NCBI GenBank assembly: GCA_022565615.1
Contig: JAIUMM010000011.1
Span: 1 to 44,331 of the forward strand
DNA from: Nanobdellota archaeon
Lineage (GTDB): Archaea > Nanobdellota > Nanobdellia > Woesearchaeales > UBA583
Reading direction: 5' to 3'
Length of the DNA: 44,331 nt
Part shown: piece by piece, positions 30,715-41,655 of the stretch
Position numbering within the stretch: the first letter of the stretch is position 1
Layout of the letters: each line of letters starts with the position of its first letter
Made by a program: the position numbers and the translations under genes
The notes under the pieces: model-generated
What the model was told of the DNA's origin: nothing
The model's input: the letters and a program-made list of their open reading frames with translations, nothing else
Database searches by the model: none

Positions 30715-33700
30715 CTACGCTTCTTCACTATCAACATATCCTGCAACATTATCTAAATCTAATGTTACAACTCCACTTACTTTATTACTATCCATTGTTA
30801 CTCCATAAATGAATTGAGAGGATTGAATTAAATATTCACTATGACTTACAACGATATATTGAGCCTTTGAAGCATTAGTACTAATCAATTTACCTAATTT
30901 TTCTGAGTTCATAATATCAAGTGCTGCATCAATTTCATCAAAAATGTAAAAATTAGCAGGATTGAATTCTTGAACTGCAAAAATAAATGCAACTGCCGTA
31001 ATTGTTTTTTCTCCTCCACTTAATGATTTAATATCTAAATAATTCTTCTTAGAGAGCCTCACTTTAATCTCAACACCTGAACTAAATATATCTTTTTCAT
31101 TTTCAAGCAATAATTCTGCTTCTCCTTTTGTAGATAATTGTGAGTATACTTGAGCAAATTTATCTTTAAGTACTGTAAATGTTTGCATAAATTTAAGCCT
31201 TTTTTTTTCATCCATTTGACTAATAAAGTTCATAATATCATCTTTTTCAACATTCAATTTTTCTCTTCTCTCAAGAAGTGAATCAAACTCTTCTTTAATT
31301 TGGTCATAAATTGCAACAGCTTTTAGATTAATTGAACCAAAACTACTAAGTTTACTTTTTAATGAATTAACATCTGTTTGAAGAGCTTTTAAATTTTCAA
31401 TTGTTGGAAGAACTTTATCAATAAACTCTAAAAATTCTTCAAATGTAGTTGCATGTTCATGTTCTACAAAATCAGCTTGAATTTCACTCTTTAACATATC
31501 TTCTTCTTCTTTATATATTTTATCAGCTCCCTTATACTCTTCTAAATTATAAAGAATTCTATTGAGAACCTCTTTAAATTTTTCAAATTTCTCATACTCG
31601 TTTGTATATCTCTTTTCTTGATATACTCTTTTCTCTTTAAGTTCATTTCTTTTAGTAATAATTCCTTCATATTCTTTTGAGAGTTCATTTTCTTTTGCTT
31701 TTAAAATTTTAAACTCTTTTTCTTTTCCACTAATAGTTTCTTTAATTTGAGAAATTTGTTCTTCAAGTCTTGATTTAGCTTCTTTTGAATCTACAATAAT
31801 TTTGTTTGAATTTTTAATTTCGGGTTCTAATACATTATTAATTTGAATGTTATAACTCCCAATTTCTTGACTTACTTTAAATATCTCATTTTGAAGTTGT
31901 TCTTTTTCTTCTTCAAGAGAATTTAATTCTTTAAACTGAGAATTTTGAGAACTAGCACTTCCTCTTAAACTTCTTTTTTTATCTTCTAATGTTTGAAGAG
32001 ATGCATTTAATTCATTTAAATCTCTATCAATTTTTTTAAGTTGAGAATTAATAATTTCTCTATCTCCTGCAATTTGTTCATATTCACGTTTTAAAGATTC
32101 ATTTGAGCTAGAATCAATTGAGAGTATCTTCTCAATTTTTCCAATTTCACCCTCTAAATTTGCTTTTTCTTCTCTAAGAGTATAAATTTTCTCTTCACTT
32201 TCATCTCTAAACCGCTTCACTTCTTGAAGTGATTGCTCAACAATAGAACTTCTTTTAATAATATTATCTAACTCTTCTCTTGTTTTTTGATCATTAAATC
32301 CTCCTCCTGATTGTTTTTGAGATCTAAATCCTCCACTCATAGCACCAGTTTTTGCAACAATATCTCCATCAAGAGTAACCATTTTATATACACCAATTCC
32401 AATACTTTTAGCACTTTCAATTCTATCAATTACAACAGTATCTGTGAAAATTAACTCAAAGACTTGTTTGTATTGAGGAGAAAATTCAATTAAATTAAGA
32501 GCATAATCAACAACACCTTTTTTAGTTAATACACTTTTATCTAAATTAACTCCTCCTCTTAATTTATTAAGAGGGAAAAATGTAATAGTTCCAACTCTTT
32601 TTTCTTTTAAATAATTAATATATGTTGTAGCAGTTGAATCATCTTTAACTACAATATTACTCAATGACCTTCCTGCAATAGTCTCAAGAGCTTTTGAATA
32701 TTTAGAGTCTACAGTTGCAAGTTCACTTACAGTTCCAATAATATTAGAATCTTTACTTTTAAATTTTAAAATTTCTTCAACTGCTCTATTTGAACTAATA
32801 TGAGCCATATTTTGTTGAATTTTTGCATTTAATTTATGTTCTTGTTCTCTGAGTCTCTCAACTTCTTGTCTTAAATTTCCCCATCTTGCACTATGCTCAC
32901 TATTTTGATTAGCAGTTTTTGAAATTTCAATAATTAATGTTTTAAGTCTTGTTCTCATACTCTCAAGAGCTTGAATTTGATCTTTATTATCATGTAATTT
33001 TTGTTGCTCATTACTCATTTGTGATTCAATATACTCAATTTTCGTATTAACTCTTTCAATTTGAACTAATAATTCTTGTTTATTACTCTCTTTTAAGTGT
33101 TTTTTCTCTCTTAATTCATCAATTTCTGCCTCAATTTTTTCAAGTTCTTTTGAATCATCTCCCCCTACTTTAGTTCTAATTGTATTAATTTGAGTTTGAA
33201 TCTCTTTGAGTCTTTTTTCAAATGAGGATTTTTTAGAATCTAATTGTTTTTGCTCATTTTTTAAGTTTGAAATTTTCTGTTGTGATGATTTAATTGATTC
33301 TTCAAGTCCTTTAATTCTTAAATTTACTTCATCTCGTTGTTTTTGTAAATCAGAAGTTCTTTCTTGAGAATTTTTAATTTCAGCTTCAATTCTAGTAATT
33401 GAATTTGTAACATTTAAAAAATCTCCATGAGATGTAATTTCAATAGTCTTTTCAATTTGCTCAAGTTCACTATCAATTTCACTAATTTTGTTTTGAAAAA
33501 TAGATAACTTTTCTTGTTGTTCTCTTACAACTTCTTCTTGTTTAATTTTTTCATCTTCTTTTTGTTCAATCATCACAAGATTTTTTTTAATTCTAGATTT
33601 TAAAAGTAATAATGATTTTTCTTGAAGTTGAGATTTAGTGGTATAAAAAGCTTGCGCATTTTCTTTTTCAGATTTTAATTCTTTTAAGTATTTAGTTTTT

Positions 33701-34308
33701 TCATTCAACAATAAATCAGCATCTTTTAAATTTTGTTCAACTTGGTCTAGTTTTTTTAAAGAATCTTGTCTTTTTTCTTCATATTCACTTACTTGAGAAA
33801 TTTCTTCAATTAATAATCTTCTCTCATTTGAACTCATATTTACAATTCTCATAATATCTCCTTGTAATATGATATTATACCCATCTGGGTCAATCTGAGC
33901 TCTTTTCAACACTTCAACAATTTCAGTTCTAGTTACTTTTTGATTATTTAGTAAATATTTAGAAGCTCCACTTTTACTTACAATTCTTGTAATTTTAATT
34001 TCATCTAAATCAACTTCAAGTAATTCTCTTTGTCCATCAACTACATCATTTGATAAAAAAATACTCACTTCAGCTTCACGACTAGCATTTTGATGTTTTC
34101 CTCCATTAAATACTAAATTCCCTAATTTATCTGCTCTTAATCCCTTTGAAGACATCCTTCCAAGTACAAAACAAAGAGCATCAAACACATTACTCTTACC
34201 AGAACCATTAGCACCAACAATAGTATTAAACCCATCTTCAAAATTTAAAACGGTGGGATTTGCAAACGATTTAAAACCTTGGAGTTTCAAACGTTTAATT
34301 ATTGACAT
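30715..34308 (-). CDS. smc: Chromosome segregation ATPase SMC
   Basis: Full-length SMC (1197 aa), the core of condensin-like complexes. Head: Walker A GANGSGKS (32-39). The first long coiled coil spans about 170-500. The hinge at about 510-680 includes [24 protein letters not shown]. The second coiled coil spans about 690-1030. The C-terminal head has [35 protein letters not shown]. The start has a Shine-Dalgarno GAGGTGA 7 nt upstream. The first 11 residues ([11 protein letters not shown]) are also encoded, with different synonymous codons, by an upstream ORF ending across this start codon. No scpA/scpB is adjacent. Confidence 0.96.
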   Translation of the reverse strand: [1197 protein letters not shown]

Positions 34309-34403
34309 CTTAATTTCACCTCTTTATTTGAAGCAACAAGGCCAACGAACGAAGTAAAATGAGTGACCTTGCCTTGTAATTTTAGCCTTTTAATTATACT
34401 CAT
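34299..34403 (-). other. Upstream ORF duplicating the smc start (34 aa)
   Basis: Opens with [11 protein letters not shown], identical to the first 11 residues of SMC, then diverges (KVTHFTSFVGLVASNKEVKL and RCQ) and stops at TAA overlapping the smc ATG region (34299-34301). Five of the ten non-Met codons differ between copies (AGT/TCA, AGG/CGT, CTA/TTG, TTA/CTC, GGC/GGT), 10 nucleotide changes in all, every one synonymous. It has a strong Shine-Dalgarno AGGAGGG. The inverted repeat CAAGGC/GCCTTG (34371-34376 and 34337-34342) uses its codons 10-11 as one arm. Overlap with smc would allow translational coupling. Confidence 0.65.
34316..34322 (-). promoter_or_regulatory. Shine-Dalgarno site of smc
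   Basis: GAGGTGA, a 7-nt match to the archaeal anti-Shine-Dalgarno consensus, 7 nt before the smc ATG. It lies inside the upstream ORF. Confidence 0.7.
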
Positions 34404-34411
34404 TTTGATTT

Positions 34412-34418
34412 CCCTCCT
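34412..34418 (-). promoter_or_regulatory. Shine-Dalgarno site of the smc upstream ORF
   Basis: AGGAGGG, 8 nt before the ATG at 34403. At least as strong as the true smc site, so the upstream ORF should be translated if present on the mRNA. Further upstream (34419-34601) lie an AT-rich TATA-like stretch near 34447-34465, an 8-bp inverted repeat at 34493-34510 and no gene. Confidence 0.65.
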
Positions 34419-34601
34419 AGATTAGCTAATATTACCTCTTCTTTTAAATAAAATTTAAACAACTTATTAGAATAATTATAATTACTATTCAACATAGATT
34501 AAAATCTATGAAATTAAATTATAAAATTTAGTCGTGACTTAGGAGGAGTATTTAATTTTAGCATTTTAAGTATTAAAATTTCAGAATAACACTTATGTAT
34601 A

Positions 34602-35132
34602 CTAAGGCCATTTTCTCTGTTCTAAATAACTAATTGAATTTTCAGGATCAACGTATGCTAAAATTATATTTTTTTTAGTTGAATGAGCAACTCTATTAAT
34701 AGAAAACAATTCTTGAGGAGATAATTTTCTTCTAGAATTACATATAAATACTAAATGAGTTGAGTGATGAGAATTGTCTTTATTATTATTCTTACTAGTA
34801 TGTTTATCATAAATTCTAAATTCAGCTCCAAATTTTAATGCTTGTTTTACATAAAATCCTTTATGTATCAAATCTTCATAAATCATAAATTGTTCCATTT
34901 TCAAATTAAATTCTTCTAAAAAATGTTCTTTACTAATAAAATTATATTGTGAAAAAAAAACATGTTTTTTATGAAAATAAATATACATAACTTCAAGAGG
35001 ATCTAATACTAAACCACCTTCTCCATTATATAAATTTGATTGAAATGTACCAAATCCTCGAGAGAGTAAAAGATTTCCAATTTTATCATTTACAACAAAT
35101 TGTCCTGCTAAAAACTCAATTTTTATATTCAT
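34602..35132 (-). CDS. endA: tRNA-splicing endonuclease EndA
   Basis: Cuts the bulge-helix-bulge motif of archaeal intron-containing pre-tRNAs. 176 aa, the size of the homotetrameric class. Catalytic triad: Tyr108 in EFRIYDK, His123 in HHSTHLVF and a Lys in STKKNIILAYVD (153 or 154). KQALKFGAEFRIY and the final YLEQRKWP are typical of the C-terminal catalytic fold. A poly-Asn/Lys/Asp loop (113-121) sits between the Tyr and His strands. The only tRNA in this window is intronless. Confidence 0.92.
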   Translation of the reverse strand: MNIKIEFLAGQFVVNDKIGNLLLSRGFGTFQSNLYNGEGGLVLDPLEVMYIYFHKKHVFFSQYNFISKEHFLEEFNLKMEQFMIYEDLIHKGFYVKQALKFGAEFRIYDKHTSKNNNKDNSHHSTHLVFICNSRRKLSPQELFSINRVAHSTKKNIILAYVDPENSISYLEQRKWP

Positions 35133-39653: not shown

Positions 39654-41435
39654 TTAGATTCCCCAAAGGGAATTTTCCTTACGCATAATCTCTGCGATTT
39701 CTTTAAGAACTGCTTTTTCATCTGAACTAAGTAAATCGATGTTTTTCTTCAGCTCCCTAAAATTCTCCTCTCCCATAAATGAATAAAGATTATCCTCCTC
39801 CTCTGCGTGCCTTCCAATAACTAAATCTTCAATAGCAACAGCAGCACTTTTAGTATATTTTAATTCTTTTAAAGAGTCATCCTTATCTTTAATAGATTTA
39901 ATTTTTCCAACTTTTTTACCCATATCAGTCATAATACTCTTACTTGTAAGAAGTGTCCCACCACCAACTTCACAACCAACAATTGCAGGATTTGAAGCTC
40001 TAAAAATACAACGAGGTAAAATTTTAATCTTAAAAGGCATAGTTAAATTACTTAATTTATCTCTTTCAATTTCTTGCTGTTTCTTAGCAAGCCAATCTTG
40101 AGCAGCATCAACTAAAGAATAAATAATATCAGAACTAATTACCTCAACTTGATACTCCTTAGCTAAAGCAAGTACTTCATCATCAATACTTTGAGAAAAA
40201 TTTAAAATCATTGCATTTTTAGGTGCTAAATTCACATCAGCTCCTGCATCCATTACATCTTTTTTACTCACTTTTCCAATAAGAGCTTTTCTAAGAGGAA
40301 TATTATGCTCATCTAAAATAAAAGAAAGTGCTTCAAGTGAACCTAATGTATCAGCTTTTACTAAAATACCTTCTTGTTGTAAATTAAGTGATAATTCTGC
40401 TTCCTCTTGTAATAATTCTTGTTTATAACTTTCAATTTCTTCTCTAGATTTCCCCTTAGGGACACAAATAATTGGCATTCCTGCTTTAACATCTTTTAAA
40501 TCAGGACATGCTAATTTCACTCCACTTGCAGCTTGAATTTCTTTAATAGAAGTAAATTTAGTTGAACTATCTCTAATCTCTTTCATTTCACCAGGTTTTA
40601 AAATACTCTTAAGTTTAGATTCTTTAACTTCATCAATATCCAAAACTAAAACAGTATCATCAACTTTACAAATACCATCATGCAAAATAACATCAATAGT
40701 TTTACCAAGTCCAGGATAATCTTTAACTTCTAAAATTACACCTCTTCCAACATTTCCTTCTTCAATAGTAAGTTTAGACTCCATAAATTTTTGAGTAAGG
40801 CCAACAACAGTTGAGAGTAATTCAGGCATACCTTCTCCTGATTTTGCTGAAATTGGAACAATTGCAAGTTGTTTTTTAAAATCTTGAACTCTATCAAATC
40901 TATCACTTTCATAACCAAATTCTGACATTTTACCAACAAGTTCATACACCTTTTGTTCTAAATGATATACGACTTGCTCATCTTGTTTATTAATTGAATC
41001 AAGTAATTTAGGAGTTAATTTACTCTTCCATTTAGGCATCAAATCAACTTTATTTGCAGCAATTACAAAAGGAGTTTTCATAGATCTTAAAATTTCAATA
41101 GCCTCAATAGTTTGGGGTTTAAATCCTTCATTAATATCAACAATTAAAATACCAATATCACAAATAGAACCTCCTCTTTTTCTAAGTGAAGTAAAAGCTT
41201 TATGTCCTGGAGTATCAATAAATAATAGTCCTGGAATTTTAATTTTATCAAGTGGAATATTTGTTACAACTTTTGCTAAATCTTTTTTAGAAACTTCAGT
41301 AGCTCCAATATGCTGAGTAATTCCTCCTGCTTCTTTTGAAATCATATTAGATCTTCTCACATAATCAAGAAGAGAGGTTTTTCCATGATCAACATGACCT
41401 AGAATTGCAATAATTGGTTGTCTTAGATAGCTCAT
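39654..41435 (-). CDS. infB: Translation initiation factor aIF5B (IF-2-like GTPase)
   Basis: GTPase promoting subunit joining and initiator-tRNA placement. About 593 aa from the ATG at 41435 (MSYLRQPIIAILGHVDHGKTS); the longer frame would need a TTG start two codons earlier. G motifs: GHVDHGKTS, ITQHIGATEV, DTPGH and NKVD. It has the compact archaeal aIF5B architecture without the long N-terminal region of bacterial IF2, and the C-terminal RKENSLWGI. The DNA for the last codons forms a 6-bp stem-loop (39658-39673). It is single, with a TATA-like stretch near 41448-41462. Confidence 0.96.
   Translation of the reverse strand: MSYLRQPIIAILGHVDHGKTSLLDYVRRSNMISKEAGGITQHIGATEVSKKDLAKVVTNIPLDKIKIPGLLFIDTPGHKAFTSLRKRGGSICDIGILIVDINEGFKPQTIEAIEILRSMKTPFVIAANKVDLMPKWKSKLTPKLLDSINKQDEQVVYHLEQKVYELVGKMSEFGYESDRFDRVQDFKKQLAIVPISAKSGEGMPELLSTVVGLTQKFMESKLTIEEGNVGRGVILEVKDYPGLGKTIDVILHDGICKVDDTVLVLDIDEVKESKLKSILKPGEMKEIRDSSTKFTSIKEIQAASGVKLACPDLKDVKAGMPIICVPKGKSREEIESYKQELLQEEAELSLNLQQEGILVKADTLGSLEALSFILDEHNIPLRKALIGKVSKKDVMDAGADVNLAPKNAMILNFSQSIDDEVLALAKEYQVEVISSDIIYSLVDAAQDWLAKKQQEIERDKLSNLTMPFKIKILPRCIFRASNPAIVGCEVGGGTLLTSKSIMTDMGKKVGKIKSIKDKDDSLKELKYTKSAAVAIEDLVIGRHAEEEDNLYSFMGEENFRELKKNIDLLSSDEKAVLKEIAEIMRKENSLWGI
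39658..39673 (-). other. Stem-loop formed by the last codons of infB
   Basis: Perfect 6-bp stem ATTCCC/GGGAAT with a 4-nt loop, made from the codons for the final N-S-L-W-G-I of aIF5B, just before the stop. A second stem-loop follows the stop. Such a structure inside terminal codons echoes the palindromes at other gene ends in this window. Confidence 0.45.
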
Positions 41436-41655
41436 TTTCAATAATAATTTTTATAATAAATTTAATACTTTTTTCAAAACATACTACAATTAAGCTTTAA
41501 TAATTTAATATATTTGAAAAAATGTTGTTAATATATAACAATTATGAATAATATAAATTAAAATGTATTTATAAAACGTATGGTAATAGAACTTATTATT
41601 TATTTTATTAAAATTCTATTAATTATAAAAAAATTAAAAATTAATATTTTGTAAT

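Follow-up and report, generated by a model that had tools for sequence, protein, structure and literature searches.

A small repeat element between two silently differing copies of an archaeal smc gene start

How does a gene for a chromosome-organising protein come to have its first 11 codons present twice, 95 nts apart, with ten nucleotide differences between the copies and none between the encoded peptides? The question is posed by smc in the window, the 44,331 nts of contig JAIUMM010000011.1 (assembly GCA_022565615.1) from an uncultured Woesearchaeales archaeon that were analysed here. The DNA which separates the copies is not unique filler. It holds the core of a dispersed repeat, and the pair is best read as the flanks of an inserted element, whose identity is well supported. 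An element lying between the copies accounts for the existence of the duplication.

The duplicated start of smc

The functional gene begins ATG TCA ATA ATT AAA CGT TTG AAA CTC CAA GGT and the upstream copy, here termed the relic, reads ATG AGT ATA ATT AAA AGG CTA AAA TTA CAA GGC (positions of this and other features are in Table 1). The initial annotation had described an exact duplicate of the SMC N-terminus with a wholly silent recoding, and both the sequence and a codon by codon comparison bear this out: five codons differ, one of them serine AGT versus TCA, with no amino acid change. That all ten changes would be silent has a probability of ~5e-5 if they fell at random, and 3e-4 if half fell on a copy bound to stay functional. 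Each copy does have a Shine Dalgarno site, as had been pointed out, but the two are not independent evidence since local alignment gives a single duplicated block of ~45 nts that takes in the Shine Dalgarno region (GAGGGAAATCAAA / GAGGTGAAATTAAG). This flanking direct repeat has a higher alignment score than randomly chosen positions within that locus (p = 0.016). The ORF that starts at the relic ends, as the initial annotation had it, across the smc start, with a TAA stop. It is the relic read through the element, and is probably incidental.

There is no second copy of the live smc start elsewhere in the genome to which the window belongs. Alignment of the upstream region in relatives had been proposed as a check; the duplicate is absent from all four congeneric smc genes, so the upstream ORF is not conserved. 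The Ser2 codon of these genes is AGT, that of the relic, in three of the four, and TCA in none. The congeneric SMCs are just 50–55% identical. A scan of public genomes with the SMC of the window alone yielded no relative; an alignment of the congeneric SMCs, used as query, did retrieve relatives.

Table 1. Features of the smc locus (positions in the window)
Feature	Position	Strand	Basis
smc, 1197 aa, functional gene	30715..34308	-	ORF; Pfam SMC_N + SMC_hinge
smc codons 1-11, downstream functional copy, TCA/CGT/TTG/CTC/GGT version	34276..34308	-	sequence, codon comparison
Right flanking repeat, functional side, ~46 nt, Shine Dalgarno region and start	34277..34322	-	local alignment
Shine Dalgarno-like GAGGTG of functional copy, inside duplicated block	34318..34323	-	sequence
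Right foldback arm GCCTTGT	34336..34342	-	7-nt stem with ACAAGGC of relic
Element core GTCACTCATTTTACTTCGTTCG	34346..34367	-	pattern, alignment and model searches
Left foldback arm ACAAGGC, terminal part of relic	34371..34377	-	arm pairing
Relic copy, smc codons 1-11, AGT/AGG/CTA/TTA/GGC version	34371..34403	-	sequence, codon comparison
Left flanking repeat, relic side, 45 nt, Shine Dalgarno region and start	34372..34416	-	local alignment
Shine Dalgarno AGGAGGG of relic copy	34412..34418	-	sequence
34-aa upstream ORF	34299..34403	-	ORF list

A dispersed repeat with a constant core

With the smc insert as query, a partial match was obtained in two congeners. Across six congeneric genomes the pattern CACTCA-N-TTCGTTCG is matched exactly at 11 places (a reversed control, at none), and a sequence model built from the core alignment gives ~30 copies in the genus (six congeneric genomes), these numbers being from pattern and model searches rather than a complete scan of each genome. 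The core of the family is GTCACTCA-N3-9-TTCGTTCG, of which GTCACTCA and TTCGTTCG are invariant in the alignment, with foldback arms on either side and often then a hairpin that varies by site. The stricter exact core was not found in the 282 genomes searched from the order outside the genus. Related cores are present elsewhere in the order, more rarely (17 matches in 10 of 353 genomes, versus none for the control), and the same anatomy is seen in assemblies of several other genera. At L189/L198 (G024:C3) a unit of ~300 bp is repeated in tandem, with the core in a foldback loop. Core-pattern matches in viral contigs were set aside as chance, the contigs being unrelated, G+C-richer and without the flanking anatomy, as was a weak match at G000:C5:23536 in A+T-rich sequence. 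Rfam gave no match up to E = 1 for window positions 34000-34900. Neither a transposase nor an integrase came to light, and an unsystematic search gave no parent element. The open-access literature searched yielded no account of elements of this kind from DPANN archaea, and the family is apparently undescribed.

The left and right arms of one copy pair better with each other than permuted arms do (p = 0.0005). The core is the constant part, and the arms seem to derive from the target. Hairpins 3′ of the core are commoner than expected by chance and exceed in length those at randomly chosen sites (MWU p = 3e-10), and their sequence differs from copy to copy.

Direct repeats of the target, 14–45 nts long, flank 12 of the 29 copies tested (p <= 0.05 versus random positions), and the gene ends repeated include those of smc, dnaK, a DUF357 gene and tRNAs. 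A gene start is repeated at L056 in G002 (18 of 18 nts), where a short ORF akin to that upstream of smc stops just before the real start. Nearer to hand, in the genome of the window, the dnaK start is duplicated upstream (AAAAATGGCAAAAG, 14 of 14 nts) with a degenerate core adjoining (L087, G000:C15:22621-22643). At L057 it is the 3′ end of the DUF357 gene that is duplicated. The tRNA-end targets are tRNA-Gln, tRNA-Arg, two tRNA-Ser and tRNA-Pro; one of the tRNA repeats matches at 26 of 26 nts, and that of L082 is not significant taken singly. The target of L049, at a contig end, is probably also a tRNA though not called by ARAGORN. [Two tRNA-Ser genes in the genome of the window, at L082 and L084 (G000:C5), are each followed by a core, together with part of the tRNA 3′ end in duplicate.] At four insertions that appear to be recent (L049, L056, L087 and L097) the flanking repeats are identical.

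Other copies are inserted in frame, in genes for D-Tyr-tRNA deacylase (dtd), a U32 peptidase, an Elp3-like protein and small membrane proteins. Two distant congeners, G002 (L054, G002:C51) and G003 (L077, G003:C1), share the site of the dtd insertion, which adds a loop of ~20 residues (KGAVT...KGF). Among the targets named here, Pfam confirms DUF357, RsmB/F, FtsX, the deacylase and U32, and the assignments to Elp3-like, dnaK and membrane proteins are readings of the sequence. Translational bypassing was considered and dropped, the functional genes being complete without it.

Silent differences recur at other gene ends

The smc pair is one of 14 gene-end pairs in which 64 bases in 51 codons differ and only three residues do. 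The combined probability is 9e-24 with every change placed on a neutral relic and ~6e-11 with half of them placed on the constrained copy. These values are to be taken as indicative and biased, since some of the pairs have a common history and those at permease genes were picked out by eye from the encoded peptide; it was nucleotide alignment that revealed the smc, DUF357 and methyltransferase pairs. The DUF357 gene end, ...EHDSVLFTVD*, is there twice with five base differences, all silent. The FFVAKI end of an RsmB/F-type methyltransferase gene is repeated at L217 (G048), with differences that are silent bar one K/R. In several families of the order, genes for FtsX/MacB-type permeases have their (A)LRYE* end repeated beside the core in different codons, and where the gene in G002 ends LRAD*, its relic likewise has LRAD*. 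Two relics in G245 are closer to the gene at the other permease locus than to their own, by three nts versus six (L220) and one versus four (L226). Permease 3′-end arrays, with at least two recoded LRYE* copies and a foldback for each, are present at L190 (G045:C65), L219 (G155:C58) and L226 (G245:C22).

Origin of the smc pair

The anatomy, the family, the direct repeats and the stems are observed, and a first step of insertion with target duplication is well supported. A small structured repeat would have inserted among the first smc codons, ~33 nts into the gene, leaving on either side a direct repeat of the target (Shine Dalgarno, start codon and codons 1–11). The downstream side would have retained a complete smc, and the upstream side a relic beside the old 5′ region. 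The foldback arms around the conserved core pair with adjacent target sequence. That many copies are near gene ends would be due to survivorship, since a repeat that covers a gene end restores the gene.

A second step would account for the silent differences. Ten changes with the peptide intact, the initial annotation argued, are not to be expected of a neutral relic. The argument is sound: the peptide could be retained only under constraint at the time of the changes. However, selection on the relic as such is unneeded if the changes predate the joining of the copies. It is simplest to suppose that they accumulated while each copy still served as a real gene end, in separate genomes or separate paralogs, and that joining came later. 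An element flanked by gene ends could have passed from one homologous end to another by recombination. At smc this would have been an exchange between orthologous genes of different lineages, one flank being resident and the other from the donor, with both copies under purifying selection before they were joined. We infer that the smc copies derive from distinct alleles, brought together by recombination. Separate histories are favoured by the AGT found in three of the four congeners with TCA in none, together with the G245 relics that are nearer to the end of another gene. Identical flanks at the apparently new insertions are what is expected if mismatch arises only through spread between homologous ends. 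The joining of a diverged allele with the old end left behind had been one of the two initial suggestions; it is compatible with these results and is preferred, though the inserted element had been missed. That insertion and later spread between homologous gene ends together explain the smc pair is put at about an even chance. Counting against it, no donor smc carrying the element was found, with no close donor sampled among SMCs that are so divergent. Also counted against it are the FtsX/MacB relics, which are spread over several families of the order, invariably beside the core; these could be one old insertion held under constraint. The ages are mixed at smc itself, where the core is intact while the two flanking copies differ by 30%.

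The other initial suggestion was a leader peptide under selection. In its present form an old target-site duplication would have left a relic that is translated as a leader, with the stop across the smc start controlling reinitiation. The relic's strong Shine Dalgarno and the overlap of its ORF with the smc ATG suit such a role, as do the minimum-free-energy fold, in which the smc Shine Dalgarno and AUG are paired, and the comparable short ORF at L056. However, the fold of the 131-nt leader is no stronger than that of shuffled sequences (z -0.88), control of this sort would not require a peptide identical to the SMC N-terminus, and the ORF is missing from the four congeners. The same silent duplication is also present at the 3′ ends of the DUF357, RsmB/F-type and FtsX/MacB genes. 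Neither gene 3′ ends nor tRNA ends, whose duplications beside the core are non-coding, can host a leader peptide, so leader control specific to smc is not the general cause, and we regard it as unlikely at smc. Template switching between a gene end and an inverted partial copy could instead have introduced clustered changes, of which only silent ones were kept in the live copy, the relic being young. It would fit the need of changes such as AGT/TCA for several bases at once, and the FtsX/MacB gene ends are indeed followed by an inverted partial copy that matches their own codon version. Yet the right arm at smc matches the relic (ACAAGGC) and not the live copy, and a relic should drift regardless; this origin is also improbable.

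Ordinary target-site duplication followed by neutral drift would make the silent pattern a matter of chance and selective notice. The smc case was indeed picked out for its synonymy, and the divergence of flanking repeats, from 0 to ~30% over the family, is as ageing would give. However, the probability for smc alone and the three residue changes among the 51 changed codons of the 14 pairs strongly disfavour it, and we consider it very unlikely. An assembly chimera of two strains at the smc site is highly improbable. The assembly is in 38 contigs and apparently metagenome-derived, but the junction carries a conserved repeat, and recurrence of the pattern in several independent assemblies argues against a local error.

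Comparison with known elements

Rickettsia palindromic elements (RPEs), of ~150 bp, sit integrated within genes (PMC10969869). The archaeal copies resemble them, by description rather than by sequence, in being small and dispersed with many in frame inside conserved genes (dtd, Elp3-like and U32 peptidase here). They differ from RPEs in their shorter unit, in that only the core is conserved while the arms and hairpin vary by site, and in the long direct repeats of the target that flank many copies. With MITEs the family shares dispersal and lack of coding capacity. Unlike MITEs, the copies in the genus have no fixed terminal inverted repeats, each arm pairing best with its own partner, and no fixed short target duplication. 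In G047 there is an inverted-repeat element of 217 bp (GCTTAGCAG...CTGCTAAGC; copies L191, L202, L208, L212 and L229) with a core-like GTCACTCGCTCTGCTCGTTCG at its centre and target duplications of 8–9 bp at four of the five copies examined.

Integrative elements such as SXT in prfC, e14 in icd and the dusA elements target the ends of genes, which they make whole again by supplying a diverged end. The smc case is similar in having the end of a gene twice, with silent differences that may set the restored copy apart. However, those elements are large, site-specific and integrase-bearing, whereas here there are ~60 nts between the copies, no integrase and many targets.

Consequences

A repeat family of Woesearchaeales-type archaea enters essential genes, among them smc, dnaK, tRNAs and genes for tRNA-editing and RNA-modifying enzymes, without destroying them. 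The genes survive either through a flanking duplication that restores their end or through insertion in frame. Recurrent silent mismatch is a sensitive marker, either of recombination between lineages or of a hidden constraint on the relic. A further possibility, which we advance tentatively and think rather doubtful, is that archaeal mini-elements home between homologous gene ends, with the flanking copies as recombination arms, and swap in the donor version. If so, silently recoded gene-end pairs would be a genome-wide record of allele exchange, and these archaea would have a route for swapping the ends of essential genes between lineages. Duplicated starts beside such elements can mislead both start-site annotation and leader-peptide prediction. 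[Apart from the repeat, an aIF5B/IF2-like gene at 39654-41441 of the window is listed from a TTG; an ATG two codons in may be its true start.]
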